Source of the DNA: an uncultured Latescibacterota bacterium
GTDB lineage: Bacteria > Latescibacterota > UBA2968
Direction of reading: 5' to 3'
DNA: 64,000 nt
Assembly: GCA_958295785.1 (NCBI GenBank)
Contig: OY282377.1
Coordinates: forward strand, 3,784,896 to 3,848,895
Part shown: positions 26,604 to 59,541 of the stretch, piece after piece
Layout of the letters: every line of letters starts with the position of its first letter
How positions within the stretch are numbered: the first letter of the stretch is position 1
The notes under the pieces: generated by a model
Seen by the model: only the letters and a program-made list of their open reading frames with translations
What the model was told of the DNA's origin: nothing
Database searches by the model: none
Translations under genes and position numbers: made by a program

Positions 26604-27851
26604 ATGAAACGACGGACGTCCAGAACGGAAGTGCGCTGTTCTTTTTGCGGCAAAAGTGCCGATCAGGTCGATAAGATCGTCACCGGTCCCAGCGTGAATA
26701 TTTGCAGTGAGTGCATCAAGCTCTGCAATGAGGTTTTGCGAGAAGAAGATCTCAAAAAGCCCGTCACGCTGCACAAGGGCCTGCCCAAGCCCACGGAAAT
26801 TAAAGCGCGTCTCGACGATTATGTGATCGGTCAAGATCCCGCCAAGCGCGTGCTCGCGGTCGCGGTGTACAACCACTACAAGCGCATTCGGAGCACTCCG
26901 TCTTCAGACGATGTCGAGCTCGACAAGAGCAATATTTTGCTCGTGGGGCCCACGGGCACGGGCAAGACCCTGTTGGCGCAAACCCTGGCGCGCACCTTAC
27001 AGGTGCCGTTTTCAATTGCCGACGCCACCATTTTAACCGAAGCGGGATATGTAGGCGAAGATGTCGAGAATATTTTGGTGCGCCTGCTTCAGGCTGCGGA
27101 TTACGACGTGGCGCAGGCCGAGATGGGCATTTTGTACTTGGACGAGGTCGATAAAATTTCGCGCAAATCGGCCAATCCGTCCATTACGCGCGACGTGTCC
27201 GGCGAGGGGGTTCAGCAGGCGTTGTTGAAAATTTTGGAAGGCACTGTGGCGAGCATTCCGCCCAAAGGCGGGCGCAAGCATCCCGAACAACCCCTGATTC
27301 AGCTCAATACGAAAAATATTCTGTTTATCTGTGGCGGCGCGTTTGATGGGCTGGAAAATGTCATCAGCACGCGCATCGGCCAAAAGACCATTGGCTTTGG
27401 GTCGGATTCGACCGAGATGGAAGACCGAAATGCCGGCGAGATTTTCCAGCACGCAGAGCCAGAAGATCTGATCAAATACGGGCTGATTCCCGAAATCGTG
27501 GGGCGCATGCCCGTGATGTGTGCGTTGGGCGATTTGGACGAGACCGCGCTGTTGCGAATTTTGACAGAGCCGCAAAATGCCATTACCAAGCAATACCAAA
27601 AGTTGTTTGAACTCGACGGGGTTTCCCTGACCTTTGAGCCTGACGCGCTGCGCGAGGTCGTTCGCATTACGCAGGAAAAGGGCACGGGCGCCCGCGGGTT
27701 GCGGTCCGTTCTCGAATCCCTGATGACGGATTTGATGTTCGATCTGCCGTCCAATGGGGACATCGCCGAGGTCACTGTGACCCGCGACATGGTTCAAAAC
27801 CGCAACGCGCCGCGCATCGAAGTTCTCGAATCGGAAAAAAAACGCGCTTAG
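26604..27851 (+). CDS. clpX: Clp protease ATP-binding subunit ClpX
   Basis: 415 residues. N-terminal C4 zinc finger at C12, C15, C34, C37. Walker A GPTGTGKT, pore loop GYVGED, the GGRKHPEQ loop and the IGF tripeptide (KTIGFGSD) that docks on ClpP are all present. AAA+ unfoldase that feeds tagged proteins into ClpP. Complete and of normal length. Confidence 0.96.
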
Positions 27852-27905
27852 AACAGATGGGTGAGCAAGCGAGAAACCCTACCCCCTATCCGAAAGGAAA
27901 CCCCC

Positions 27906-28097
27906 ATGCCGATCCCCATCATTGAATCGCAAACCACCAATGAAAGACTGGCAAGGCTTGAAACAATTGCTGAACAGCACACGCGATCCCTTAACAGACT
28001 TGAAGATGACATGCATAAGTCTTTTCGTTGGCTTATTGGCCTCATGTTTATCGCATGGATTTCAACGATTGTCACGATCTTGCTGAAAGTTGATTGA
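27906..28097 (+). CDS. Small membrane protein, 63 aa
   Basis: ATG 27906 follows GAAAGGAAA. The first 35 residues form a charged, heptad-like helix (TNERLARLETIAEQHTRSL), followed by one hydrophobic helix (WLIGLMFIAWISTIVTILL) and a short tail. No family recognised. Its 3' half, together with the downstream terminator and leader, is duplicated at 52205-52560. Confidence 0.6.
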   Translation: MPIPIIESQTTNERLARLETIAEQHTRSLNRLEDDMHKSFRWLIGLMFIAWISTIVTILLKVD

Positions 28098-28127
28098 CCA
28101 CCCGCCAAAAAGCCATTCGCAGATGGG

Positions 28128-28159
28128 AACCGGGGCCGAATTTGACCCCGGTTTTCTTT
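28128..28159 (+). terminator. Rho-independent terminator after small membrane gene
   Basis: Stem AACCGGGG (28128-28135) and CCCCGGTT (28146-28153), ten-base loop, then TTTTCTTTG. A copy with one change in the T-run lies at 52317-52347 in the duplicated segment. Confidence 0.72.
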
Positions 28160-28360
28160 GTGTTAAAAAGGCGGATCGCGGATGAAACAGATTGCGCGGA
28201 TTGCGCGGATGAAAGGCGAAAGGCAAAAGCAACCCCAGAATGGACACGGATTGAGGCTTGCAGGTAGAGCGGAGGATGCAACAGGTGGGAAGGCCGCAGC
28301 GGGGTAATCCGCGCAATCCTTTAATCCGTTTAATCCGCAATTCAGACAAATGAGACAGCC

Positions 28361-28489
28361 ATGAACCGTTTCGCTATCCCAACCAAACTGACCACCTGCA
28401 TTTTCGCGTTGCTCTGCCTCGCGTCTGTCGGGTGGGCTTCGCCGCAACCATCCGCAGAACAAAACGCTCAATGTATCCCGAGTCATTGA
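28361..28489 (+). pseudogene. Signal-peptide end of a lost WD40-dockerin gene
   Basis: Reads MNRFAIPTKLTTCIFALLCL then ASVGWASPQPSAEQ, nearly identical to the first 33 residues of the proteins starting at 31739 and 52561. After PSAE the similarity stops abruptly and a TGA follows within nine codons. The upstream leader is also shared with 52300-52560. It marks the left border of the cassette 28490-31392. Confidence 0.82.
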
Positions 28490-28552
28490 ATACACCAGAC
28501 ACTTGCCACCGCGCCGTACGAAACCGAACTTGTGGCAAATAGGAGGACAATT

Positions 28553-28756
28553 ATGAACAAAACACACGGTACTCGATTTAGTGAATTGGTTGGAGAGAAG
28601 CTGGCGTCTGAAGAACAGGCTCGCCAGCTATGGATACCCATAGCAGAAGCATTTAATAGGGATGGTCCCGATGCCGCCAAGGAATATCTTGCCGCCGAAA
28701 GTCAGCGGCTTGAAGGACGCGTACAGAATCTAATCAACCAATTTAATGGGAGGTAA
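28553..28756 (+). CDS. Small helical protein, first gene of ATPase-nuclease cassette
   Basis: 67 residues from ATG 28553, AGGAGG seven bases upstream. Predicted mostly helical and charged (FSELVGEKLASEEQARQLW; AAKEYLAAESQRLEGRVQNL). No recognised domain. Its stop is six bases before the ATPase start, and the GGAGG of the ATPase overlaps its last codons, so the two are co-translated. It could be a small adaptor or antitoxin-like partner; that is a guess from context. Confidence 0.6.
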   Translation: MNKTHGTRFSELVGEKLASEEQARQLWIPIAEAFNRDGPDAAKEYLAAESQRLEGRVQNLINQFNGR

Positions 28757-28761
28757 AGCTG

Positions 28762-30855
28762 ATGAAAAAGGGATTCCGTATCCAGACCCTTGCAATCGAA
28801 GGATTCAAGGGCTTCACGACACGCAAAGAAATTGACCTTAAAGGGTGTCACACCTTTTTGCTAGGACAAAACGGCAACGGAAAGTCGAGCATCATAGAGG
28901 CCATTCGCTGGGGGCTGTTTGGTTCTGTAGGTAGGCCAAATGAAATTATAGCGAATCGAGACTACTCTAAACGGTGCCGCGTCGATATTACCCTTATGAG
29001 TGAAGGGAAGAAGTTGAATCTTCGACGTACACTGATACAAGGTGCGAGTGGCGGAAGCGACGCTATACTCACCGATGAGCACGGGGAGGAACTCTCTATT
29101 CGAGATATTATGCCCCAACTGGACTCTGTGGATGCAGGCGAGGGAATGCACATCATTTTTTCGCCCCAATCTACTCCGCTCCGCCGCCGACCTGAAGATC
29201 TTACGCCATTTGAAAGAACCGTCTTCAATCACCTCGGGCTCACTCATCCTCAAGCGTTACTGAGTCAACTGGATAGCTTCCTCAATAATCAAGAACATGT
29301 TGAGAAAAACTTGGGTGCAGAGCTCACTGCTACCCGCCAAAAAGTCGATACTCAGATTGGTGAACTCAATAGTCGGAGAGGAAATATTCTCAGTTCACCG
29401 CCTTGGGATGACGATCGTACGCCATCAGTCGCAGATTCCGAAAACAAAGCCCGAGATCTGATCATAGAGATTACCGGTAAACAACCTGACCCGTCTTTGT
29501 CAGGAGCATCACTGAATGCGCTGATTGACAATGGAGAAGACGCTCTAGAAGACAGACGAGATCAAGACCAAGGTGGACTAAAAATAAAAAAAGAAATTTT
29601 TGTTAAACGCAGGAATAGTCTGGAGGAACTCCGAGAAATTGAAAAGGAACTTAAGATACAAAAATCTCAAGTTCAAGACTTGCAATCGCAACTTGACGCC
29701 ATGCTAGAGGGTAAATCTCTCGACGAACTCCGGGACAGTAGCAAAAAAATGCGAGAAGCAACAGACGCCGCAGAGCTAAGGCACCAGATAGTCGAGAGGG
29801 CGATTGAATTGTTAAATCGCGACCAAAAAGATTCCGTGTACTGTCCCGTTTGCGAAGTGGAACACCACCGGCAACCTTTGAGGTCAGCACTCCAGGGTAC
29901 TGCCAGTCGACATTCTGACGATGCAAATTCAAGACTAAACCAACTCGAATCTTGGCTCAAAAAAGCCGAAGAACTTGAACACGGGGCCCAAAGGCTCAGG
30001 AATGAATTAGCTGAGACAGAGCAGAGGGCAAATGATATTAGGGCGGACCTTGATCCAGACGACGTGCAAGAACTCTCTGATCAAGTTAATATGGAACAAC
30101 TAGATGAAATGATAAAACGCTGTTTGAATCGAGAATCTTCGATAAAGGATCAGATTGAACAAAAAGAGAGTTGGTTTGGTGCAATAAAATCCCGGTTATT
30201 CAATCTGAAGGAAGAAGGAAAATTTCATCAAATCCAAGATGAGTTGATTAATCTTCAGCAATCCAGAAACCGATTTAAGGAAGTCGAGAAAGCCTACCAA
30301 GACCTTGTTTCGTTCGGTGAATCAGTTCGGATAATACAGCAGGCAGTGGAAACTTGCCTTAAAGAACGACTTGAGAAAGATATACCGGGGGTATCTGAAA
30401 ATCTCTCACAGGTTTTTGTTGCGTTGACTCGCCATCCATGGTTTGACCGACTGATCATTGCAAGGGATCCACTGCCAAAACTCGAGCTAAGGGTGGCGAG
30501 TAGTCAGGACTCCTCCGGTACTTCACACCCCACTGGAGTACTGAATGGACAAGCTGAAAGTGCGCTGGACCTTGTCCCGTATTTTGCATTTAGTCAGGCG
30601 GACAATGCGCCTACTGAGGTGTATCTGGTCTTACTGGACGATCCTACACGAGCGTTTGATGAAGAACACACTAAGATATTAGTCAAGCGCTTAGCCGATC
30701 TCGGTCATTACGTACAACTCATGGTTGCTTCTCAGGAGACTGCTCGATTTCGAGAACTGTTACCGAAGAATTTCGAGCAAAGTGAATATGTTATCGTTGA
30801 ACCTACCCGCTGGTCGTATCACGATGGCCCAGAACTGGAGATCGAATATGAATAG
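28762..30855 (+). CDS. Rad50/SMC-like ABC ATPase of a putative defence cassette
   Basis: 697 residues. Walker A GQNGNGKSS at residues 35-43, with FKGF upstream as in SMC/RecF-type ATPases. A long central coiled coil (about 190-540) is broken by CPVC (C361, C364), a possible zinc-hook motif though with only one CxxC. C-terminal signature-like LNGQAESALDL is near 594, and Walker B VYLVLLDDPTRAFD has D626-D627 (D-D where D-E is common). No membrane segment. The codon use is AT-rich compared with clpX. ATPases of this kind drive DNA-sensing defence systems such as Lamassu and ABC-three-component loci; membership of any of these is not shown. Confidence 0.82.
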   Translation: MKKGFRIQTLAIEGFKGFTTRKEIDLKGCHTFLLGQNGNGKSSIIEAIRWGLFGSVGRPNEIIANRDYSKRCRVDITLMSEGKKLNLRRTLIQGASGGSDAILTDEHGEELSIRDIMPQLDSVDAGEGMHIIFSPQSTPLRRRPEDLTPFERTVFNHLGLTHPQALLSQLDSFLNNQEHVEKNLGAELTATRQKVDTQIGELNSRRGNILSSPPWDDDRTPSVADSENKARDLIIEITGKQPDPSLSGASLNALIDNGEDALEDRRDQDQGGLKIKKEIFVKRRNSLEELREIEKELKIQKSQVQDLQSQLDAMLEGKSLDELRDSSKKMREATDAAELRHQIVERAIELLNRDQKDSVYCPVCEVEHHRQPLRSALQGTASRHSDDANSRLNQLESWLKKAEELEHGAQRLRNELAETEQRANDIRADLDPDDVQELSDQVNMEQLDEMIKRCLNRESSIKDQIEQKESWFGAIKSRLFNLKEEGKFHQIQDELINLQQSRNRFKEVEKAYQDLVSFGESVRIIQQAVETCLKERLEKDIPGVSENLSQVFVALTRHPWFDRLIIARDPLPKLELRVASSQDSSGTSHPTGVLNGQAESALDLVPYFAFSQADNAPTEVYLVLLDDPTRAFDEEHTKILVKRLADLGHYVQLMVASQETARFRELLPKNFEQSEYVIVEPTRWSYHDGPELEIEYE

Positions 30856-31372
30856 TTACACGCTACCTGGTGCAAGGGAGTGCATTGAACGCATACGCTC
30901 AGACACCTCTCCAGGTGAGTTCGGCTACAAGATTCAAGCTCTTGCTGCACATGTGCTAATACGGCTCGGTTATCAAATAAACGAGTTCAACCGGTCAGGA
31001 CATCCAGATATTGTCGCTATCAAAGACGGGAGAGAATTTCGTTTTGAGGTAGAAGCCGAAGTGATCGGACCTTGCCCTCGTAAGCTGACAGATGCTGACT
31101 TTGCTTCGTTGACGGAATCATCAAACGTAGTTGGCTATTATGCGCTTGCGATTAGCTTCCCAACGCCCTATTGGGTATTGGTGCCCGCCTCTAAACTCAT
31201 CTGTAGAAAATTTTCCAGTTCAAACATGTTACTAGAAGCTCTCAGTGATAAGTCATACTCATCAGAATGGACATGGGAGTATGTGCAGTTGCTTCAATCT
31301 GCTTGCCGACAAATCAAGCTATCATCATTCAGAGATTTAAGTAAAATGGCACTGGCAGGCCGTAGTCTTTAA
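30848..31372 (+). CDS. PD-(D/E)XK / Mrr-like protein, third gene of cassette
   Basis: 174 residues from ATG 30848, overlapping the ATPase stop by eight bases. An N-terminal helix with GEFGYKIQALAAHVLIRLGY is followed by GHPDIVAIKDGREFRFEVEA, the alpha-beta core layout of Mrr-like restriction folds: aspartate of PD, then E-x-E in place of E-x-K. A lysine further on (CPRKLTD) might replace the missing one, or the protein may be a binding rather than a cutting subunit. The tight overlap shows it works with the ATPase. Confidence 0.68.
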   Translation: MNSYTLPGARECIERIRSDTSPGEFGYKIQALAAHVLIRLGYQINEFNRSGHPDIVAIKDGREFRFEVEAEVIGPCPRKLTDADFASLTESSNVVGYYALAISFPTPYWVLVPASKLICRKFSSSNMLLEALSDKSYSSEWTWEYVQLLQSACRQIKLSSFRDLSKMALAGRSL

Positions 31373-31392
31373 GTGGTTGGTGAAACCGAAAC

Positions 31393-31443
31393 TTCGGCGA
31401 TTTCCTGATATTCGGCAGTGCCTTTGATCGGGAAGGGTCATAA
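31393..31443 (+). pseudogene. Dockerin tail of a lost WD40-dockerin gene
   Basis: Encodes FGDFLIFGSAFDREGS-stop, the exact last residues of the proteins ending at 36118 and 59541. The following 180 bases match the trailer after 36118. It marks the right border of the ATPase-nuclease cassette. Confidence 0.85.
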
Positions 31444-31619
31444 CCGCGCCACCGGACACGCGATAGCCTCTACGCCGCACGCGATAAAAAGCGGTTTGTT
31501 GACGCTCTTTTGGCGTTGAATATATTGTTTTGAAGCACTCTGCGCTGGTGGTCAGAAAAAAAATTTGACGACCGCCTCCTTACAGTACGCTGAGGCACGC
31601 TATCCAAAGGAGAAAGCCC
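31444..31619. repeat. Trailer repeat after dockerin tails
   Basis: Also present after 36118 (about 36119-36290) and in shorter form after 56562 and 59541. It contains CGCGATAGCCTCTACGCCGC, which as codons reads RDSLYAAR, a string found at residues 50-57 of the WD40 proteins. It is therefore a remnant of a neighbouring gene copy rather than ordinary spacer DNA. Confidence 0.68.
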
Positions 31620-31742
31620 TTGTTTAATTTAGGCGATGTGCTGGTGCTCGACTTCCCCGATGTGACGGGCGTCAAACGCCGGCCAGTAGCGGGTGCAGAG
31701 GTGCGGGGTAATCCGCGATTCAGACAAAGGAGACAACCATGA
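31620..31742 (+). pseudogene. PemK/MazF toxin N-terminal stub, copy 1
   Basis: From TTG 31620, with AAAGGAGAAA upstream, the frame reads LFNLGDVLVLDFPDVTGVKR then RPVAG, the typical first 25 residues of PemK/MazF-type endoribonucleases. It then runs into the leader repeat and stops at the ATGA overlapping the next start. The catalytic region is absent. Confidence 0.65.
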
Positions 31743-34700
31743 ACCGTTTCGCTATCCCAACCAAACTGACCGCCTGCATTTTCGCGTTGCTCTGCCTCGC
31801 GTCTGTCGGGTGGGCTTCGCCGCAACCATCCGCAGAGGACAATGTGCATTTTTGCCAAGTTCTCGATTACGAAGACATGCGCGCACGCGATAGTCTCTAC
31901 GCCGCACGCAAGCAGGCACTTAACCTGAACGTTGGCGAACCTCGCACGGTGCGGATGATCTACTTCTTGCCCAATGACCGGCCGTTTCGCCAAGAAGTGG
32001 TCGATTCGATGAAAACGACGATCCGTCAGGTTCAGACTTTTTTCCGCGATCAGATGCGCGCAAATGGATACGGGGGCATGACCTTCCGCTTTGAAACCGA
32101 CGCAGGACGCAACCCGACGGTTCATCGCGTAGATGGTCAATACTCCGATAGCCACTATCTTGACGACACAGTTGGCACTGTACGTGACGAGGTTGGACAG
32201 GCGTTTGATCTCTCGGCGAACAACGTCTATCTCATCGTCGTTGACAATAGTATAGATGCAATTGGTTTTAGTGATGGAACTCAGGCGTATGGAATTGCTA
32301 CTGTGGGGGAAAGAAATAGCGGCCGTGCGTATGTTTCAGGCGAATTTGACTTTTTTTTAGCCGCGCATGAACTTGGACATACCTTTGGCTTGGGTCACGA
32401 TTGGAGGAATCGGAGGTATATCATGTCGTATGGCGGTGCAGAACGATCACGGTTATCAGCGTGTGCTGCCGAGTTTTTGGCCGTGCATCCCTACTTCAAT
32501 CCGGATATTCCAGATGAAGAGACACCGCCACCAACCCTCGAGCTCATTTCATCGCTTTCATATCCGCCAGGATCAACAAGTGTCCCTGTCCAACTCAAAG
32601 TCCATGATCCTGATGGGCTTCATCAAGTGTGGTTAGTGGTTAGAGGGGGATTAAAGATGTGCCAGGGATTAAACGGCGAACAAGATGCCATCGTTCAATT
32701 CGATTATGATGGCGTTATTCCATCTGTTGAAGACTTTTATGGCACGGGCACAAGCCTTTCTAATCCTCTTGTGCATAACCTTTATATCCGTGCAGTTGAT
32801 ACTGGCGGAAATGTTAGTTCATGGATGGATGGAAATTTTTCCCTGTGGAACACTGAAAATGAACGCAATGTTATCGCCAAACTCGAGGGGCATTCGTCTG
32901 ATGTCAGTTCAGTTTCGTTTTCGCCCGATGGTAGCACCCTTGCTTCAGCGTCTTATGATAGCACGGTCAAAATGTGGGATGTATCAACGAGACAGAACAT
33001 CGCCACGCTTGAAGGGCATACAGGTTGGGTCGAATCAGTTTCGTTTTCGCCCAATGGTTCAACCCTCGCATCAGGGTCATGGGATGGCACGGTCAAACTG
33101 TGGGATGTGGCAACGAGACAGAACATCGCCACGCTTGAAGGGCATGGGCATTGGGTCAATTTAGTTGCGTTTTCGCCCGATGGTAGCACCCTCGCTTCGG
33201 CGGCAGGTAGAACGATCAAGCTGTGGGATGTATCAACGAGACAAAACATCGCCACGCTTACGGGGTCGGATCGGGTCTTTTCAGTTTCGTTTTCTCCCGA
33301 TGGCAGAACCCTCGCATCAGCGTCTTATGATCACACGGTCAAGCTGTGGGATGTGGCAACGAGACAGAACATCGCCACGCTTGAAGGGCATACGTATTGG
33401 GTCAATTCAGTTTCGTTTTCGCCCGATGGTTCAACGCTCGCTTCAGGGTCAAGTGATCGCACGGTCAAGCTGTGGGATGTGGCAACGAGACAGAACATCG
33501 CCACGCTTGAGGGACATTCGGCAGGGGTCAGATTAGTTTCGTTTTCGCCCGATGGCAGCACCCTCGCATCAGGGTCATGGGATAACACGATCAAGCTGTG
33601 GGATGTGGCAACAAGGCGCAATATTGAGACCCTTTACAGGGGTGAGACTGCGATCACTTCCCTGGCATTTTCACCCGACGGTAAGATTCTCGCATCCGGA
33701 TCAAGGAAAACCACCAATGACAATGCCCAGGTGGTACTGTGGGATATGCAGGCAATCCTGCAATCGCAGCCTCAAGCCTTGGTGAAAATCTCAGGCGATA
33801 ACCAGCAAGGCGTGTCAGGTGAAGCATTGACGAATCCGTTTGTCGTTGAAGTGCAAAATAAAAATGGTGTTGGGCTCGCTGGTTTTCCGGTTAGATTTAC
33901 CGTCACCGCAGGCGATGGAAAACTCAGCGGGCGGTTCAGTGGTGAGAGCGCAACAACCGATGCCAATGGCAGGGCGCAAAGCACGCTGACGCTTGGAGAC
34001 CTTCCGGGCACAAACACTGTTGAGGCATCTATGGCTGACCTTAAGGTGGCCTTCAACGCCGTGGGGGTTGGAATGCCGCCGATTGGGAGCGATTATCAGA
34101 CATGGCATTTACCCGCAGGGGCAATCGCTCGCTTGGGAAAAGGAAGGATTTATGAAGTCGCGTTTTCGCCTGATGGTTCACTCCTCGCTGTGGCAAGTAG
34201 CATTGGCATTTGGCTTTATGACGCGGCGACCTCTCGTGAACTCGCGCTACTCACTGGGCATGGGGGGCGGGTCTTTTCAGTTTCGTTTTCTCCCGATGGC
34301 AACACCCTCGCTTCAGGGGCAAATGATAACACGATCAAGTTGTGGGATGTGGCAACGAGACAAAACATCGCCACGCTTAAGGGACATTCGAGTGGGATCA
34401 CTTCAGTATCGTTTTCGCCCGATGGTAGCACCCTCGCTTCAGGGTCATGGGATGACACGATCAAACTGTGGGATGTGGCAACGAGACGGAACATCGCCAC
34501 GCTTGAGGGACATTCGGGTTTGGTCGAATCAGTATCGTTTTCGCCCGATGGTAGCACCCTCGCTTCAGGGTCTTATGATGGCATAGTTCTGCTGTGGGAT
34601 GTGGCAACGAGACAGAACATCGCCACGCCTGAGGGACATTCGGGTTCGGTCCATTCAGTATCGTTTTCGCCCGATGGTTCAACCCTCGCATCAGGGTCAG

Positions 34701-36118
34701 GGGAAGGGGAAGGGGGAGGGTCAGGGAGGCCTGGCACGGTCAAGTTGTGGGATGTGGCAACGAGACAAAACATCGCCACGCTTGAGGGACATTCGGGTTC
34801 GGTCGAATCAGTATCGTTTTCGCCCGATGGCAGCACCCTCGCTTCAGGGTCATGGGATGACACGATCAAACTGTGGGATGTGGCAACGAGACGGAACATC
34901 GCCACGCTTGAGGGACATTCGGGTTTGGTCCATTCAGTTTCGTTTTCGCCCGATGGCAGAACCCTCGCATCAGGGTCATGGAATGGCATAGTTCTGCTGT
35001 GGGATGTGGCAACGAGAAATGTGGCAACGAGACAGAATATCACCACATTTGAGGGACATTCGGGTTCGGTCCATTCAGTATCGTTTTCGCCCGATGGTAG
35101 CACCCTCGCTTCAGGGTCAGGGGATAACACGGTCAAGTTGTGGGATGTGGCAACGAGACGGAACATCGCCACGCTTGAGGGACATTCGGGTTCGGTCCAT
35201 TCAGTTTCGTTTTCGCCCGATGGCAGCACCCTCGCATCAGGGTCATGGGATAACACGGTCAAGTTGTGGGATGTGGCAACGAGACGGAACATCGCCACGC
35301 TTATAGGGCATTTGAGTGGAGTATCGTTTTCACCCGATGGCAGCACCCTCACTTCGGCGGTAGGTAGAACGATCAAGCTGTGGGATGTGGCAACGAGACA
35401 GAACATCGCCACGCTTGAAAGGCAGAGAGATTGGGTCGAATCAGTATCGTTTTCGCCCGATAGCAGAACCCTCGCTTCAGGGTCTCATGATGGCATGGTC
35501 AAATTGTGGGATGTGGCAACGAGACAGAACATCGCCACGCTTGAGGGACATTCGGGTTCGGTCGAATCAGTATCGTTTTCGCCCGATGGCAGCACCCTCG
35601 CTTCAGGGTCAGATGATCGCACGGTCAAGCTGTGGGATGTGGCAACGAGACAGAACATCGCCACGCTTGAGGTATATTCTTCGGTCGAATCAGTATCGTT
35701 TTCGCCCGATGGCAGAATCCTCGCTTCAGGGTCATGGGGTAACACGGTCAAGTTGTGGGATGTGGCAACGAGACAGAACATCGCCACGCTTACGGGGCAT
35801 TTGGATGGGGTCAAATCAGTATCGTTTTCGCCCGATGGTAGCACCCTCGCATCAGGGTCATGGAATGGCATAATTCTACTGTGGGATATGTCGCTGTATA
35901 TCACGCCGCTCCCCTCCTTACCACCCGCGGTACTGACGCCCGACTTCAATGGCGATGGCAGAGTTGATTTCGCCGACTTTCTGTTGTTCACCGCGCAATT
36001 CGGATTAAGTCAAGGCGCCCCGGGCTATGATGCGCGGTACGATCTGGATGGCGATGGCAAAATTGGCTTCGGCGATTTCCTGATATTCGGCAGTGCCTTT
36101 GATCGGGAAGGGTCATAA
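31739..36118 (+). CDS. Secreted zinc-protease / WD40-propeller / dockerin protein, 21 blades
   Basis: 1459 residues. Signal peptide 1-26. A metzincin-like domain has HELGHTFGLGHD (H210, E211, H214, H220) and a Met-turn M229 (IMSYG). Seven WD40 blades span about 377-672. A bacterial Ig-like (Big_1-type) domain follows, about 680-780 (GVGLAGFPVRFTVTAGDG). Fourteen more blades span about 788-1387. The C-terminal dockerin-like pair of calcium loops is DFNGDGRVDFADF and DLDGDGKIGFGDF. Blade counts of 7 and 14 fit one plus two propellers. Blades are near-identical in DNA (about 126-bp units). The product should be exported and may be anchored through cohesin-like partners; its target is unknown. 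Confidence 0.85.
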   Translation: MNRFAIPTKLTACIFALLCLASVGWASPQPSAEDNVHFCQVLDYEDMRARDSLYAARKQALNLNVGEPRTVRMIYFLPNDRPFRQEVVDSMKTTIRQVQTFFRDQMRANGYGGMTFRFETDAGRNPTVHRVDGQYSDSHYLDDTVGTVRDEVGQAFDLSANNVYLIVVDNSIDAIGFSDGTQAYGIATVGERNSGRAYVSGEFDFFLAAHELGHTFGLGHDWRNRRYIMSYGGAERSRLSACAAEFLAVHPYFNPDIPDEETPPPTLELISSLSYPPGSTSVPVQLKVHDPDGLHQVWLVVRGGLKMCQGLNGEQDAIVQFDYDGVIPSVEDFYGTGTSLSNPLVHNLYIRAVDTGGNVSSWMDGNFSLWNTENERNVIAKLEGHSSDVSSVSFSPDGSTLASASYDSTVKMWDVSTRQNIATLEGHTGWVESVSFSPNGSTLASGSWDGTVKLWDVATRQNIATLEGHGHWVNLVAFSPDGSTLASAAGRTIKLWDVSTRQNIATLTGSDRVFSVSFSPDGRTLASASYDHTVKLWDVATRQNIATLEGHTYWVNSVSFSPDGSTLASGSSDRTVKLWDVATRQNIATLEGHSAGVRLVSFSPDGSTLASGSWDNTIKLWDVATRRNIETLYRGETAITSLAFSPDGKILASGSRKTTNDNAQVVLWDMQAILQSQPQALVKISGDNQQGVSGEALTNPFVVEVQNKNGVGLAGFPVRFTVTAGDGKLSGRFSGESATTDANGRAQSTLTLGDLPGTNTVEASMADLKVAFNAVGVGMPPIGSDYQTWHLPAGAIARLGKGRIYEVAFSPDGSLLAVASSIGIWLYDAATSRELALLTGHGGRVFSVSFSPDGNTLASGANDNTIKLWDVATRQNIATLKGHSSGITSVSFSPDGSTLASGSWDDTIKLWDVATRRNIATLEGHSGLVESVSFSPDGSTLASGSYDGIVLLWDVATRQNIATPEGHSGSVHSVSFSPDGSTLASGSGEGEGGGSGRPGTVKLWDVATRQNIATLEGHSGSVESVSFSPDGSTLASGSWDDTIKLWDVATRRNIATLEGHSGLVHSVSFSPDGRTLASGSWNGIVLLWDVATRNVATRQNITTFEGHSGSVHSVSFSPDGSTLASGSGDNTVKLWDVATRRNIATLEGHSGSVHSVSFSPDGSTLASGSWDNTVKLWDVATRRNIATLIGHLSGVSFSPDGSTLTSAVGRTIKLWDVATRQNIATLERQRDWVESVSFSPDSRTLASGSHDGMVKLWDVATRQNIATLEGHSGSVESVSFSPDGSTLASGSDDRTVKLWDVATRQNIATLEVYSSVESVSFSPDGRILASGSWGNTVKLWDVATRQNIATLTGHLDGVKSVSFSPDGSTLASGSWNGIILLWDMSLYITPLPSLPPAVLTPDFNGDGRVDFADFLLFTAQFGLSQGAPGYDARYDLDGDGKIGFGDFLIFGSAFDREGS

Positions 36119-36290
36119 CCGCGCCACCGGACACGCGATAGCCTCTACGCCGCACGCGATAAAAAGCGGTTTGTTGACGCTCTTTTGGCGTTGAATATAT
36201 TGTTTTGAAGCACTCTGCGCTGGTGGTCAGAAAAAAATGACGACCGCCTCCTTACAGTACGCTGAGGCACGCTATCCAAAGGAGAAAGCC

Positions 36291-36428
36291 CTTGTTTAAT
36301 TCAGGCGATGTGCTGGTGCTCAACTTCCCCGGTGTGACGGGCGTCAAACGCCGGCCAGTAGCGGGTGCAGAGGTGCGGGGTAATCCGCGTCATCCTTTAA
36401 TCCGTTTAATCCGCGATTCAGACAAGTG
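36291..36428 (+). pseudogene. PemK/MazF toxin N-terminal stub, copy 2
   Basis: Same 5' piece as at 31620 (TTG start, FNSGDVLVLNFPGVTGVKRR), again joined at the same point to the TAATCCGCG leader repeat, and ending at TGA 36426-36428. The region 36119-36290 before it is the dockerin-gene trailer. The stub lies directly upstream of engB. Confidence 0.65.
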
Positions 36429-36439
36429 AGAGTTGATCT

Positions 36440-37027
36440 ATGAAATTCCGTTCTGCCGAATTTGCAATGAGCGTTGGTTTTGCGCGGCAATTGCCCCGCG
36501 ATGGGGGGGCTGAAATTGCATTTGCAGGGCGTTCCAATGTGGGCAAGTCGTCGCTGATCAACCGGTTGTTTAACCGCAAAAATCTGGCCAAGACCAGCAA
36601 CGCGCCCGGCAAGACGCGCACCCTGAATTTTTATTCGGTCAATCGCAGGTATTATTTTGTCGATTTGCCCGGCTATGGATACGCAAAGCGAAGCCGAAGC
36701 GAGCGACAGGCGTGGGGGAAGTTGATCGAAAGCTATGTGCGGGATCGCCCTTCGCTCAAGGGATTTGTGCAACTCCTCGACGCGAGGCACGATCCGAGCC
36801 GCGATGATTTGCAGATGATCGACTGGCTGATGAGTGGCGAGAAACCGTTTTTGGTGGTCGCCACCAAGACCGACAAGTTGTCGGGCAACAAACTCAGAAA
36901 CCGATTGGATCAAACCCGGCGCGTGCTCGCGTTATATGGAAATTTTGATCTGCTGCCGTTTTCCGCCACAACGGGTCGCGGTAAGGACGCGGTTTGGCGC
37001 TGGATTGGAGAGGTGTTAGATGCGTAA
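36440..37027 (+). CDS. engB: Ribosome-assembly GTPase EngB (YihA/YsxC)
   Basis: 195 residues. G1 GRSNVGKSS, G2 region KTSNAPGKTRTLNFY, G3 DLPGYGYA, G4 TKTD and G5 FSATTGRG are complete. Essential in many bacteria for 50S subunit assembly and division. The DNA upstream is recombined repeat, so its promoter must lie in or beyond the MazF stub. It overlaps the next gene by eight bases. Confidence 0.93.
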   Translation: MKFRSAEFAMSVGFARQLPRDGGAEIAFAGRSNVGKSSLINRLFNRKNLAKTSNAPGKTRTLNFYSVNRRYYFVDLPGYGYAKRSRSERQAWGKLIESYVRDRPSLKGFVQLLDARHDPSRDDLQMIDWLMSGEKPFLVVATKTDKLSGNKLRNRLDQTRRVLALYGNFDLLPFSATTGRGKDAVWRWIGEVLDA

Positions 37028-51277: not shown

Positions 51278-52203
51278 GAGTCCCTAACAGAAAGCGTTGC
51301 CATGGCTTTGTGAGAGGCCGCTTTTCTTCTCAGCCCAACCCTTACAACGTCCATGCCCGGCATCTTTACCGGGCGAGGAGGGACAAATGTCCAACCCCCT
51401 CGTGAGCGATGCACTCTGGGAAAAGGCCCCCCCCCTTTTGCCGGTTCCCAAGCCTGGACGGTTCCGCTTTCCTGGCCGTAAGCGCATTGACGACCGCAAG
51501 GCATTGACCGGCATTCTATTCGTCCTGAAGAGCGGCATCCCGTGGGATCAGTTGCCCCAAGAGATGGGGTGGGGTTCCGGGATGACCTGCTGGCGTCGTC
51601 TGAAGGCATGGCATGACGCAGGCGTGTGGGAGCGGCTTCATCATCTGCTGTTGTCCAAACTGCGAGTGGTCGATGGCCTGGCCGGGTCTCGCGCCTGCGT
51701 GGACAGCGCCTCCCTGCGTGCGGTAGGCGCTGGGGGGAAAACCCGGCCCCAATCCCACAGACCGCCGCAAGCCCGGGCGTAAGCATCATGGGATCACCGA
51801 TGCCAACGGGGTGCCTTTGGCCGCGATTGTGCCCGGGGCGAACCGGCCAGATGTGACGCAATGGTTGCCATGGGTGGACGCTGTGCCTGCGGTCAGGGGC
51901 AAACGCGGTCGTCCGCGCCGCAGACCCCAACGGCTGTATGCGGCGCGTGCCTATGACTCGGAGGCGTGCTGGAAGGCCCTGCGTGCGCGCCACATCTGGC
52001 CGGTGATCGCCCGGCGGGGTACAGCGCATGGCAGCGGGTTGGGCGTGTACCGGTGGGTCGTTGAGCGGACGCTGGCCTGGCTCCGGCAGTTTGGCAGCCT
52101 GCGGGTGCGCGACGAACGCAGAGCGGACATCCATGAGGCGTTCCTCTCCATCGGCTGTTCACTCCTCTGTTTCAGATGCTTGATTTCTTTATGTTAGGGC
52201 TTC
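51278..52203. mobile_element. IS5-family (IS1031-like) insertion sequence, 926 bp
   Basis: Ends are GAGTCCCTAACA and, inverted, GAAGCCCTAACA. TAA flanks it on both sides (51275-51277 and 52204-52206), fitting the three-base TNA duplications of the IS1031 subgroup. The terminal 50 to 60 bases at each side match the two arms of the 112-bp MITEs at 13883 and 15104, so this element or a sibling is their parent. Confidence 0.85.
51387..52197 (+). pseudogene. IS5-family transposase with a frame change
   Basis: ATG 51387 follows GAGGAGGG. The N-terminal half (LVSDALWEKAPPLLP; GILFVLKSGIPWDQLPQEMG; CVDSASLRAVGAGGK) is in one frame to TAA 51782. From the run GGGGGGAAAA near 51731-51740 the DDE continuation (GPNPTDRRKPGRKHHGITDA; RRGTAHGSGLGVYRWVVERT; LAWLRQF) is in another frame, ending at TAG 52197. 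One G fewer would join them. Because some IS5 subgroups use programmed shifts to make OrfAB, this copy could still be active. Confidence 0.78.
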
Positions 52204-52204
52204 T

Positions 52205-52285
52205 AAGTCTTTTCGCTGGCTTATTGGCCTCATGTTTATCGCATGGGTTTCAACGATTACCACGATCTTGCTGAATGTCGATTGA
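52205..52285 (+). pseudogene. 3' half of the small membrane protein gene (duplicate)
   Basis: Encodes KSFRWLIGLMFIAWVSTITT and ILLNVD, matching residues 38-63 of the protein at 27906. The 5' half is absent: the IS ends here and the DNA on its other side is unrelated. The following 270 bases, including a terminator at 52317-52347 and the leader repeat at 52503-52550, also match 28098-28360. Confidence 0.75.
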
Positions 52286-56646: not shown

Positions 56647-57730
56647 TTAGGACTTACGCAATCTCCATTGGAATATGAGGTACTTTGAGTTGTTGTCTCA
56701 AGAAGTCAGCCAGCCCTCGGTATTTGACTTGATAAATGGTTTGTCCTGTTTGATAGGCCACCTGCGCGAGTCGAATCCAAACGAACATCGCACACCCACT
56801 ATGATTTCGTACCATGCGTGCCAACCGACATGGACACTTTTCAAGCCCGGTCACCTGTTTGACTTCGCGGTGAAAGGGCTCAATTTTCCATCGTCTGTGA
56901 CACACCTGTTGTACCCCTGAAGAATCGTTTTGAGCATGGTCGTTGGTCACGACCTACGCCGTGCGTCTATCAGAAGACGCCCCCCGGAATAATTTCACTT
57001 TGTGGTCTTTGGGAAACCCTCTGATTTTAATTGACTTGCCTTGTTTGCGTTGCGCTTGAGTCCAAGTTAAGCTATCTACGCGCTGGTAGGGGGTTGTGCC
57101 TGCCGAATCGTCCACGCGCCGGTTCGTCTTGAGGGGACAATAATAGGTTTTTTGCATCTGCTCTCTGTGTCGCATGACCGTTTTGGTCGCATACCCACTG
57201 TCCATCAAGACCCCGGTAAAAGGGAGGCCCTTCTGATAGACCAACGCAGAGAGCATGTCCTTGAGAGGATCCAATTTGGTTTTGCCATCGTCTTGCGGGT
57301 CATAAATCCGATAGTCAATCAGCCAGAACCGATCCTCTTGCGGATGGACATAGACACATGTGACCCCCCCGATGCCATTGATGACGCCTTGGGCGTTGCC
57401 GCTCTATTGACGACGCACTCACGCGATCTTGCGTGCGTGGCGCTTGTCTAAAACCGGGTCATCAAAGATCACATCGCCTTTGGGCGTCAACGCGATGTGG
57501 TCTTTGACGTGTTCCCACACCAAGCGGGGGGGATACGCTCACCGGCGAGATAGCGGTTGATCCTATCATGACTGAACCCTTCGCTATGGTCGGCGAAAGG
57601 GGTCAGGGTATCGTTGAGGGGACGGCTAAGCAGATACTGACAGTCATCCAAACGCGTCGGGTGGCGCATTGACACCTCCTCAAAGTGATAAATTTTACGG
57701 AATTGCACCCTTTTTTAACGTAAGTCCTAA
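56647..57730. mobile_element. Defective DDE transposon (IS4/IS701-like), about 1.08 kb
   Basis: Terminal inverted repeats TTAGGACTTACG (56647-56658) and CGTAAGTCCTAA (57719-57730). It holds a minus-strand transposase remnant. The right end abuts a 5'-truncated antitoxin-like gene, so the insertion probably broke that gene. No clear target duplication is seen. Confidence 0.75.
56654..57708 (-). pseudogene. IS4/IS701-like transposase, disrupted
   Basis: Reading from 57708: an N-terminal SHDRINRYLAGERIPP, a first aspartate in VIFDDPVLDK and a second in GVLMDSGYATKTVM, then the catalytic glutamate region RWKIEPFHREVKQVTGLEKC and a tail QTIYQVKYRGLADFLRQQLK. The frame changes between 57487 and 57274, and a TAG at about 56951-56953 interrupts it before VVTNDHAQN. 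It cannot make a full enzyme. Confidence 0.75.
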
Positions 57731-58059: not shown

Positions 58060-59541
58060 ATGAACAAACGAATTGCATTCACAGGTCTGAGGATCCATGC
58101 TTACACCCGGTCAGCACAGGCATTGATGATCGCCCTTACATTGCTGGTCTTTGTGGGGCGGATTTCTGCCGGTCCCCATTTTGAAAACGCGACCTCAAGC
58201 ACTGAAATCGCGCCGACAAACAAGACCACGTTTCAAGGCACGCCCGACTTTGATGGCAGTGGCACGGTTGATTTTGCCGACTTTCTCATTTTTGCCTCTG
58301 TTTTTGGAACAACTGCATCGGATTCCGGTTTTCATGTATCGGCGGATTTGAATGGCGATGGTGCGGTAGGGTTTGCAGATTTTCTAATTTTTGTCCGCTA
58401 CTATGGAGCAATGGTATCTGAAAATAGTCCATCCATACCAGGATTGGTTATTACCTCTGGCCCCAATGTCAATGCTGTTCTGTCTTTGGATATTGATGCC
58501 AGCAATAATAAAATGGATGATGGTAATACATCGGGCACTGTTGCGGGTGCTGGTACCGATATTGTCGTCGAGGTGTTTGTCAATGGGTTAGCAGGTCCAA
58601 TTATCGGTGGCGAGTTATCCTTTGATACGGATATGCTGACAGTCAAAGGTGCGGTGGTTACTACAGGGTTAAATATCTTTGGGACTATCGCCAAAACCAC
58701 CACTCTTGGCGGTTTTCCGCCTGGTGTTTCTCTAACCAATGGCTATTTGGCAACTATTACGTTTACGACTGCTTCTGATGTAACAGGTACCGAGTTCACA
58801 GTTAGTGCCAGTATGAATGTGGCTGATGGTACAAATATTGGTCAGATTAATATGATTGTTGCGTCTGCGCCCTTGACTTTTAACACCACCTCGCCTCCCT
58901 CGCCTCCCTTGCCTCCCTTGCCTCCCTTTTCACTTTCTTTGGATGGAGATGGCGCAGCGGGCGATCAAGCGGTGACAACGCTCGATATTTCACCCGGGTC
59001 GGTTGCGACCATTCAGGTCTTTGGCAGAGGGATTCGGCAGGCCACCGGCATTTCTGCGCGTTTTGAATACGATTCAGTGCAGGTGGCTTACGAGGACTTT
59101 GACGCGGGCGGTGTTCTGCCAAATGCACAGGTGCTTGACGTGCCTTCAACGAATCCAACGGCTGTCGAGATCAATCTCGTATCTTTTGGCGGGCAAGCCA
59201 CCGCCGATAGCGGCATGGTGGGCAATATTCGCTTTCGCACAATGAGCGCGTTTTCCGGTACGACGCTTCGGTTGGTGCATGCGGAGCTCGGCCGAGGAAC
59301 GCAACGCGAGCGCGTGACGTTTGCCGATACCCACATCACCTTACAACCCGCGGCACTGACGCCCGACTTCAACGGCGATGGCCGGGTTGATTTCACCGAC
59401 TTTCTGTTGTTCACCGCGCAATTCGGATTGCGTCAAGGCAACCCGGGCTATGACGCACGGTACGATCTGGATGGCGATGACGCCATTGGCTTCGGCGATT
59501 TCCTGATATTCGGCAGTGCCTTTGATCGGGAAGGATCATAA
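58060..59541 (+). CDS. Secreted protein with dockerin loops at both ends and cohesin-like domains
   Basis: 493 residues with an N-terminal signal (ALMIALTLLVFVGRISAG). A first calcium-loop pair, DFDGSGTVDFADF and DLNGDGAVGFADF, is followed by two beta-rich cohesin-like domains (IVVEVFVNGLAGPIIGGELS; IQVFGRGIRQATGISARFEY) separated by a PPSPPLPPLPP linker. The C-terminal pair DFNGDGRVDFTDF and DLDGDDAIGFGDF is almost the same as in the WD40 giants. A protein with both cohesin- and dockerin-like parts could scaffold the WD40 proteins at the cell surface. Confidence 0.78.
   Translation: MNKRIAFTGLRIHAYTRSAQALMIALTLLVFVGRISAGPHFENATSSTEIAPTNKTTFQGTPDFDGSGTVDFADFLIFASVFGTTASDSGFHVSADLNGDGAVGFADFLIFVRYYGAMVSENSPSIPGLVITSGPNVNAVLSLDIDASNNKMDDGNTSGTVAGAGTDIVVEVFVNGLAGPIIGGELSFDTDMLTVKGAVVTTGLNIFGTIAKTTTLGGFPPGVSLTNGYLATITFTTASDVTGTEFTVSASMNVADGTNIGQINMIVASAPLTFNTTSPPSPPLPPLPPFSLSLDGDGAAGDQAVTTLDISPGSVATIQVFGRGIRQATGISARFEYDSVQVAYEDFDAGGVLPNAQVLDVPSTNPTAVEINLVSFGGQATADSGMVGNIRFRTMSAFSGTTLRLVHAELGRGTQRERVTFADTHITLQPAALTPDFNGDGRVDFTDFLLFTAQFGLRQGNPGYDARYDLDGDDAIGFGDFLIFGSAFDREGS

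Follow-up and report, generated by a model that had tools for sequence, protein, structure and literature searches.

The window, a stretch of 64,000 nucleotides (3784896–3848895) of a genome assembled as a single contig of 5.66 Mb, contains a cassette of three tightly packed genes on the plus strand, as are the other features of the clpX–engB region given below. The first gene encodes a 67-aa protein (P0001; 28553–28756), the second a 697-aa Rad50/SMC-like ABC ATPase (P0003; 28762–30855), and the third, which overlaps the second by 8 bp, a probable PD-(D/E)XK-like nuclease of 174 aa (P0002; 30848–31372). The GC content of the cassette is 46%, compared with 54% for the window. Gene by gene, GC is 0.45–0.48 and GC3 0.41–0.42, against 0.53–0.59 and 0.54–0.70 in the larger neighbouring genes that were measured.

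P0003 has a Walker A motif (GQNGNGKSS), a CPVC hook at residues 361–364, a signature-like NGQAE and a Walker B motif (LLDDP). It matches the profiles of SMC_N (Pfam, 1.4e-14), Rad50 (1.3e-16) and LmuB (PADLOC, 3.4e-22), the last at family level only, with the N-terminal 109 residues as the best stretch. Among solved structures, its sequence relatives are Rad50 and SMC only. The CPVC is predicted to lie at the break between two long coiled-coil arms and, like the Walker B stretch LLDDPTRAFD, is kept in both ATPase homologs. In P0002 the motif residues are E24, GHPD54 and FRFE67-V-E69, and a glutamate occupies the position of the usual catalytic lysine (E67-V-E69). The alpha-beta-beta-beta-alpha-beta order of its predicted model (mean pLDDT 45) fits the PD-(D/E)XK core, with P53-D54 present. 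Based on the motif and this low-confidence model, P0002 is fairly likely to be a PD-(D/E)XK-like nuclease in which a catalytic position is altered. It has no Pfam match and no PADLOC match at E values up to 1, and a Foldseek search with the model returned noise only. P0001 has no PADLOC match, and none of the defence families matches cassette genes 1 or 3.

Remnants at the borders of the cassette

The first-pass annotation had placed the head of a WD40-dockerin gene to the left of the cassette, nearly identical to those at 31739 and 52561. The start codon and signal peptide (28361–28458) are indeed 99% identical to the intact neighbour at 31739 and 96% identical to 52561. The leader that precedes them (28172–28360) is 85–90% identical at paralogs and includes a repeat that is dispersed through the genome. 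Nine further loci carry leader and signal peptide with 86–98% identity, and all nine heads open WD40 ORFs of 964–1629 aa. At the cassette, homology extends up to 28458 only, and the remnant (28361–28489) now reads as a 42-codon leader ORF, MNRFAIPTKLTTCIFALLCLASVGWASPQPSAEQNAQCIPSH-stop, which is a dead remnant of the head. The 94 bp between the left breakpoint and the cassette (28459–28552) end in an AGGAGG ribosome-binding site. They show no similarity to WD40 genes, nor, upstream of that site, to the related gammaproteobacterial locus described below.

On the right, a 19-bp spacer (31373–31391) is followed by the last 16 codons and stop of a WD40-dockerin gene (31392–31443) and by a trailer common to the intact genes of the family (31444–31577). 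This tail (31392–31577) is 96% identical to 36067–36252 of the intact neighbour, in agreement with the earlier description of this border, although its start is refined to 31392. The last 16 codons, FGDFLIFGSAFDREGS-stop, are the same in the remnant and in the neighbour. The tail recurs at 11 other loci of the genome, where it is in frame with long ORFs. Chance likeness of the gene ends is excluded by E values of 4e-56 for the head and, at best, 1e-77 to 1e-121 for the tail copies. Two tails lack a matching head; these belong to a 254-aa WD40 fragment and to a secreted dockerin protein of 493 aa (58060–59541). The latter has no WD40 matches yet ends in the tail of the WD40 genes, and therefore the tail has been combined with differing bodies.

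The homology breakpoints thus lie at 28458/28459 and 31391/31392. Between them (28459–31391) no WD40 interior is detectable (best blastn E of 0.38 against three intact genes), consistent with the proposal that the interior was replaced by three tightly packed, AT-richer genes. The borders share leader, signal peptide and dockerin end with intact WD40-dockerin family members and, judged from sequence comparison, the site is likely to be a gutted WD40-dockerin gene.

The sequence of the intact tandem gene (31739–36118; 1459 aa) suggests that its product is a secreted metalloprotease-WD40-dockerin protein; an HExxHxxGLGH motif lies near its N-terminus (AAHELGHTFGLGH). The trailer of the gutted unit also carries a relic of a PemK/MazF-type toxin–antitoxin pair, consisting of an antitoxin end and a toxin start (31578–31700). 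The relic is common to both tandem units (31578–31700 and 36250–36370), and shorter versions are found at two other WD40 loci (L067 and L071). An intact PemK/MazF-like toxin gene is present in one same-genus genome (L116).

The clpX–engB junction and its dispersed copies

In ten out of ten same-genus genomes, the clpX terminator and then engB come next after clpX, with engB 78–164 bp from the clpX stop. In the window genome the two anchors of this ancestral junction, clpX on the left (26604–27851; 89–91% aa identity in 10/10 of these genomes) and engB on the right (36440–37027; 81–85% in 10/10), are separated by 8.6 kb (27852–36439), and none of the ten has such an insert. It comprises a 78-aa ORF, the terminator, the gutted WD40 unit and the intact WD40 unit. 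Comparison with these genomes makes it almost certain that the whole 8.6 kb was inserted between the two genes. Documentation of the swap is unusually good, since the site survives in ten sister genomes without WD40 gene or cassette. The 78-aa ORF (27861–28097), which is missing from the relatives' clpX–engB gap, sits between clpX and the clpX terminator. It has no Pfam match, and a tandem cluster near 5.256 Mb contains diverged copies of it.

The clpX terminator region (28120–28171) is kept in relatives: it was found once in each of six same-genus genomes searched, and four more show it at clpX. The window genome has six occurrences, at clpX and at five dispersed WD40 genes, to which it was copied with the WD40 head. 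All five copies match window positions 28016–28458 unbroken, across terminator, leader and head. Each of them ends at 28458 and continues as a WD40 ORF, which argues that the copy at clpX began as an ordinary WD40 gene whose gutting came later. Most simply read, a WD40 gene still followed the head at clpX when that head was copied out, and the idea that a secreted WD40-dockerin gene served as the landing site is strengthened accordingly by the five paralogs. An IS5-family end lies directly upstream of the five copies, and the transposase gene is still readable upstream of the 52561 copy; these ends may explain the spread.

That transposase gene (51387–52206) is split into two ORFs, and the end with GTTAGGGCTTCTAA abuts the copied terminator and head. 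Related ends are found beside the other copies, and the WD40 units L067 and L071 are bordered by short elements whose ends are similar. A second transposase element (DDE_Tnp_1; 56648–57719) lies between two dockerin tails, with near-identical copies at L067 and near 4050121. A short dispersed repeat (28167–28230; GCGGATCGCGGATGAAACAGATTGCGCGGATT...) has about 50 copies genome-wide, which are clustered in places, for example at 3.959 Mb.

Could the former occupant have been a secreted dockerin protein without WD40 repeats, with only its ends shared? We regard this as improbable. The tail does occur on the non-WD40 protein at 58060–59541, and 28459–28552 is not recognisable as WD40-gene sequence, but every one of the nine other genes with the head is a WD40 gene, and WD40 genes also follow the head in the five copies that stem from the clpX locus. 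It is highly improbable that a short signal-peptide gene and a dockerin end never enclosed a longer gene and that the cassette landed between independent fragments. The head does have a stop of its own today, as a 42-codon ORF, but heads continue into long ORFs at nine loci, tails are in frame with long ORFs at 11, and the fragments are joined directly, with no intervening gene, in none of the genomes examined. Relatives with the two short ends but no WD40 gene between, which the first-pass annotation had set against its own reading, were not found: head and tail are absent from the clpX–engB site in ten out of ten same-genus genomes. An assembly or binning artefact that joined a contaminant cassette to repeated gene ends was rejected as scarcely credible because a repeat-driven misjoin needs common sequence at the join and the cassette edges share none with WD40 genes; repeats do form the borders and the genome, with 3.1% contamination, probably comes from metagenome assembly, but it is a single contig of 5.66 Mb, and the clpX and engB on the outside are unique.

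Origin of the module and route of replacement

All three genes were found, with their order kept, in the chromosome of an uncultured gammaproteobacterial MAG (L087). The first, second and third genes are 58%, 59% and 70% identical, respectively, and DNA similarity is confined to the operon, starting at the first ribosome-binding site and stopping where the third gene ends. The neighbourhood of the module there includes an Xre-RES pair, an IrrE-PIN (DUF4411) pair and a methyltransferase-HNH protein, which is a defence/toxin–antitoxin context. None of 60 relatives of the window genome has the cassette. Carriers represent 1 out of 369 gammaproteobacterial genomes and 1 out of 53 genomes of the same order, and the two instances of the module that were found are in distantly related genomes. 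Plasmid and phage records contain no full-length relatives of any cassette gene. Among viral contigs, only short matches of 50–140 residues were obtained for the ATPase, and none for the small protein or the nuclease. We consider the cassette foreign because of its low GC and its absence from the 60 relatives, and horizontal acquisition of the three-gene module is very probable on this sequence evidence.

The cassette had initially been described as a mobile or defence module. A foreign unit that travels as three genes is supported by the 60 relatives that lack it and by L087, which has all three. The mobile part of the description fared less well: there is no recombinase in the three genes, no target duplication, no terminal inverted repeat (none of at least 40 bp) and no repeat at the aligned junctions.

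We propose that a WD40-dockerin gene entered the clpX–engB gap in the window lineage, as indicated by the genome comparison, and that the WD40 unit was then duplicated in tandem, as the tandem arrangement and the shared trailers suggest. From there, as the matches show, clpX terminator, leader and head were copied together to five other loci. The horizontally acquired three-gene module would subsequently have replaced the interior of the first tandem copy, from 28458 to 31392; the end state is observed and the route inferred. This last step was probably illegitimate recombination with deletion, which would have reduced the former signal peptide and dockerin end to dead borders. Such a route fits breakpoints at which neither homology nor a target duplication nor a recombinase is seen; shared sequence and a diagnostic scar are likewise missing there. 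Recombination between repeated gene ends had been suggested earlier. No second cassette with such ends is present in the genome or in the 60 relatives and the breakpoints lack homology, observations that leave this route neither favoured nor contradicted.

At this locus, foreign cargo has entered a chromosome by taking the place of an amplified gene's interior, and the case is well bracketed: the empty site, the copies of the intact ancestor and the gutted copy are all readable. It suggests that large secreted-repeat families can act as disposable landing sites. At variable loci, duplicated host genes can have their interior replaced by defence and cargo genes. As at such loci, a dispensable repeated gene is the cargo site here, but there is no integrase, attachment site or phage.

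Proposed function and comparison with known systems

Lamassu (LmuA/LmuC/LmuB), an anti-plasmid and anti-phage system, also has three genes including a small protein and an enzymatic partner, which is a nuclease in many members (PMC10586767). LmuB (about 650 aa) and P0003 (697 aa) are both compact Rad50-like ATPases of near 650–700 aa, and the CPxC hook of many, but not all, Lamassu members is found in P0003 as CPVC. In contrast, the order is effector-small-ATPase in Lamassu and small-ATPase-nuclease here. LmuA combines an N-terminal enzyme with a C-terminal docking domain, whereas P0002 is a stand-alone protein of 174 aa with no LmuA match. LmuC is the small middle component, whereas P0001 is encoded by the first gene and has no LmuC match. 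An E-to-Q form of Walker B is described for LmuB, compared with DDP here. Because effector, small subunit, order and Walker B all differ, we file the cassette as a variant rather than as a Lamassu member, and its mode of action most likely resembles that of Lamassu or Rad50-nuclease defence.

Rad50–Mre11/SbcCD likewise pair a nuclease with ABC ATPase halves that are split by a zinc-hook coiled coil, but the cassette ATPase is much shorter, there is an extra small gene, and here the ATPase does not belong to the conserved housekeeping genes. Menshen, Septu, Gabija, Pbe and other ATPase–nuclease defence systems have the same ATPase plus nuclease architecture, and the N-terminal ATPase motif of P0003 matches NsnB, PtuA, GajA and PbeC. 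However, these matches are mostly confined to the Walker A region (PbeC also includes the coiled coil) and the partner genes are unmatched.

By analogy with Lamassu and Rad50 complexes (PMC10586767), the Rad50/LmuB-like coiled-coil ATPase would dimerise via its CxxC zinc hook and sense DNA ends or abnormal DNA. The nuclease, tethered or restrained by the small first protein (P0001), would cut DNA once licensed by the ATPase, making the module a DNA-directed defence unit. We lean slightly towards a defence role. A DNA-repair or genome-maintenance module (an SbcCD-like ATPase plus nuclease), for which landing in a dispensable duplicated gene was neutral, appears unlikely. The ATPase scores with Rad50 models, and Rad50 and SMC are its only solved relatives, but Mre11/SbcD was not found as the partner (profile searches with the adjoining protein gave no match). 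Moreover, the composition is foreign, the spread is patchy, with absence from the 60 relatives and from 368 other gammaproteobacterial genomes, and toxin–antitoxin genes adjoin the module in the other host.

The whole scenario of WD40 entry, duplication, spread and replacement by a DNA-directed defence unit is moderately likely. The three-gene ATPase–nuclease module is absent from the defence catalogues searched and is so far found in two distantly related genomes only. Tentatively, the three genes might represent a new and rare ATPase–nuclease defence family with a nuclease active site of its own (E-V-E for E-x-K) and its own small regulator, which moves between distant lineages and exploits amplified genes for secreted repeat proteins as disposable places to land. 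No promoter-like site was detected ahead of the cassette operon, whose transcription may now be driven from the leader of the gutted gene.
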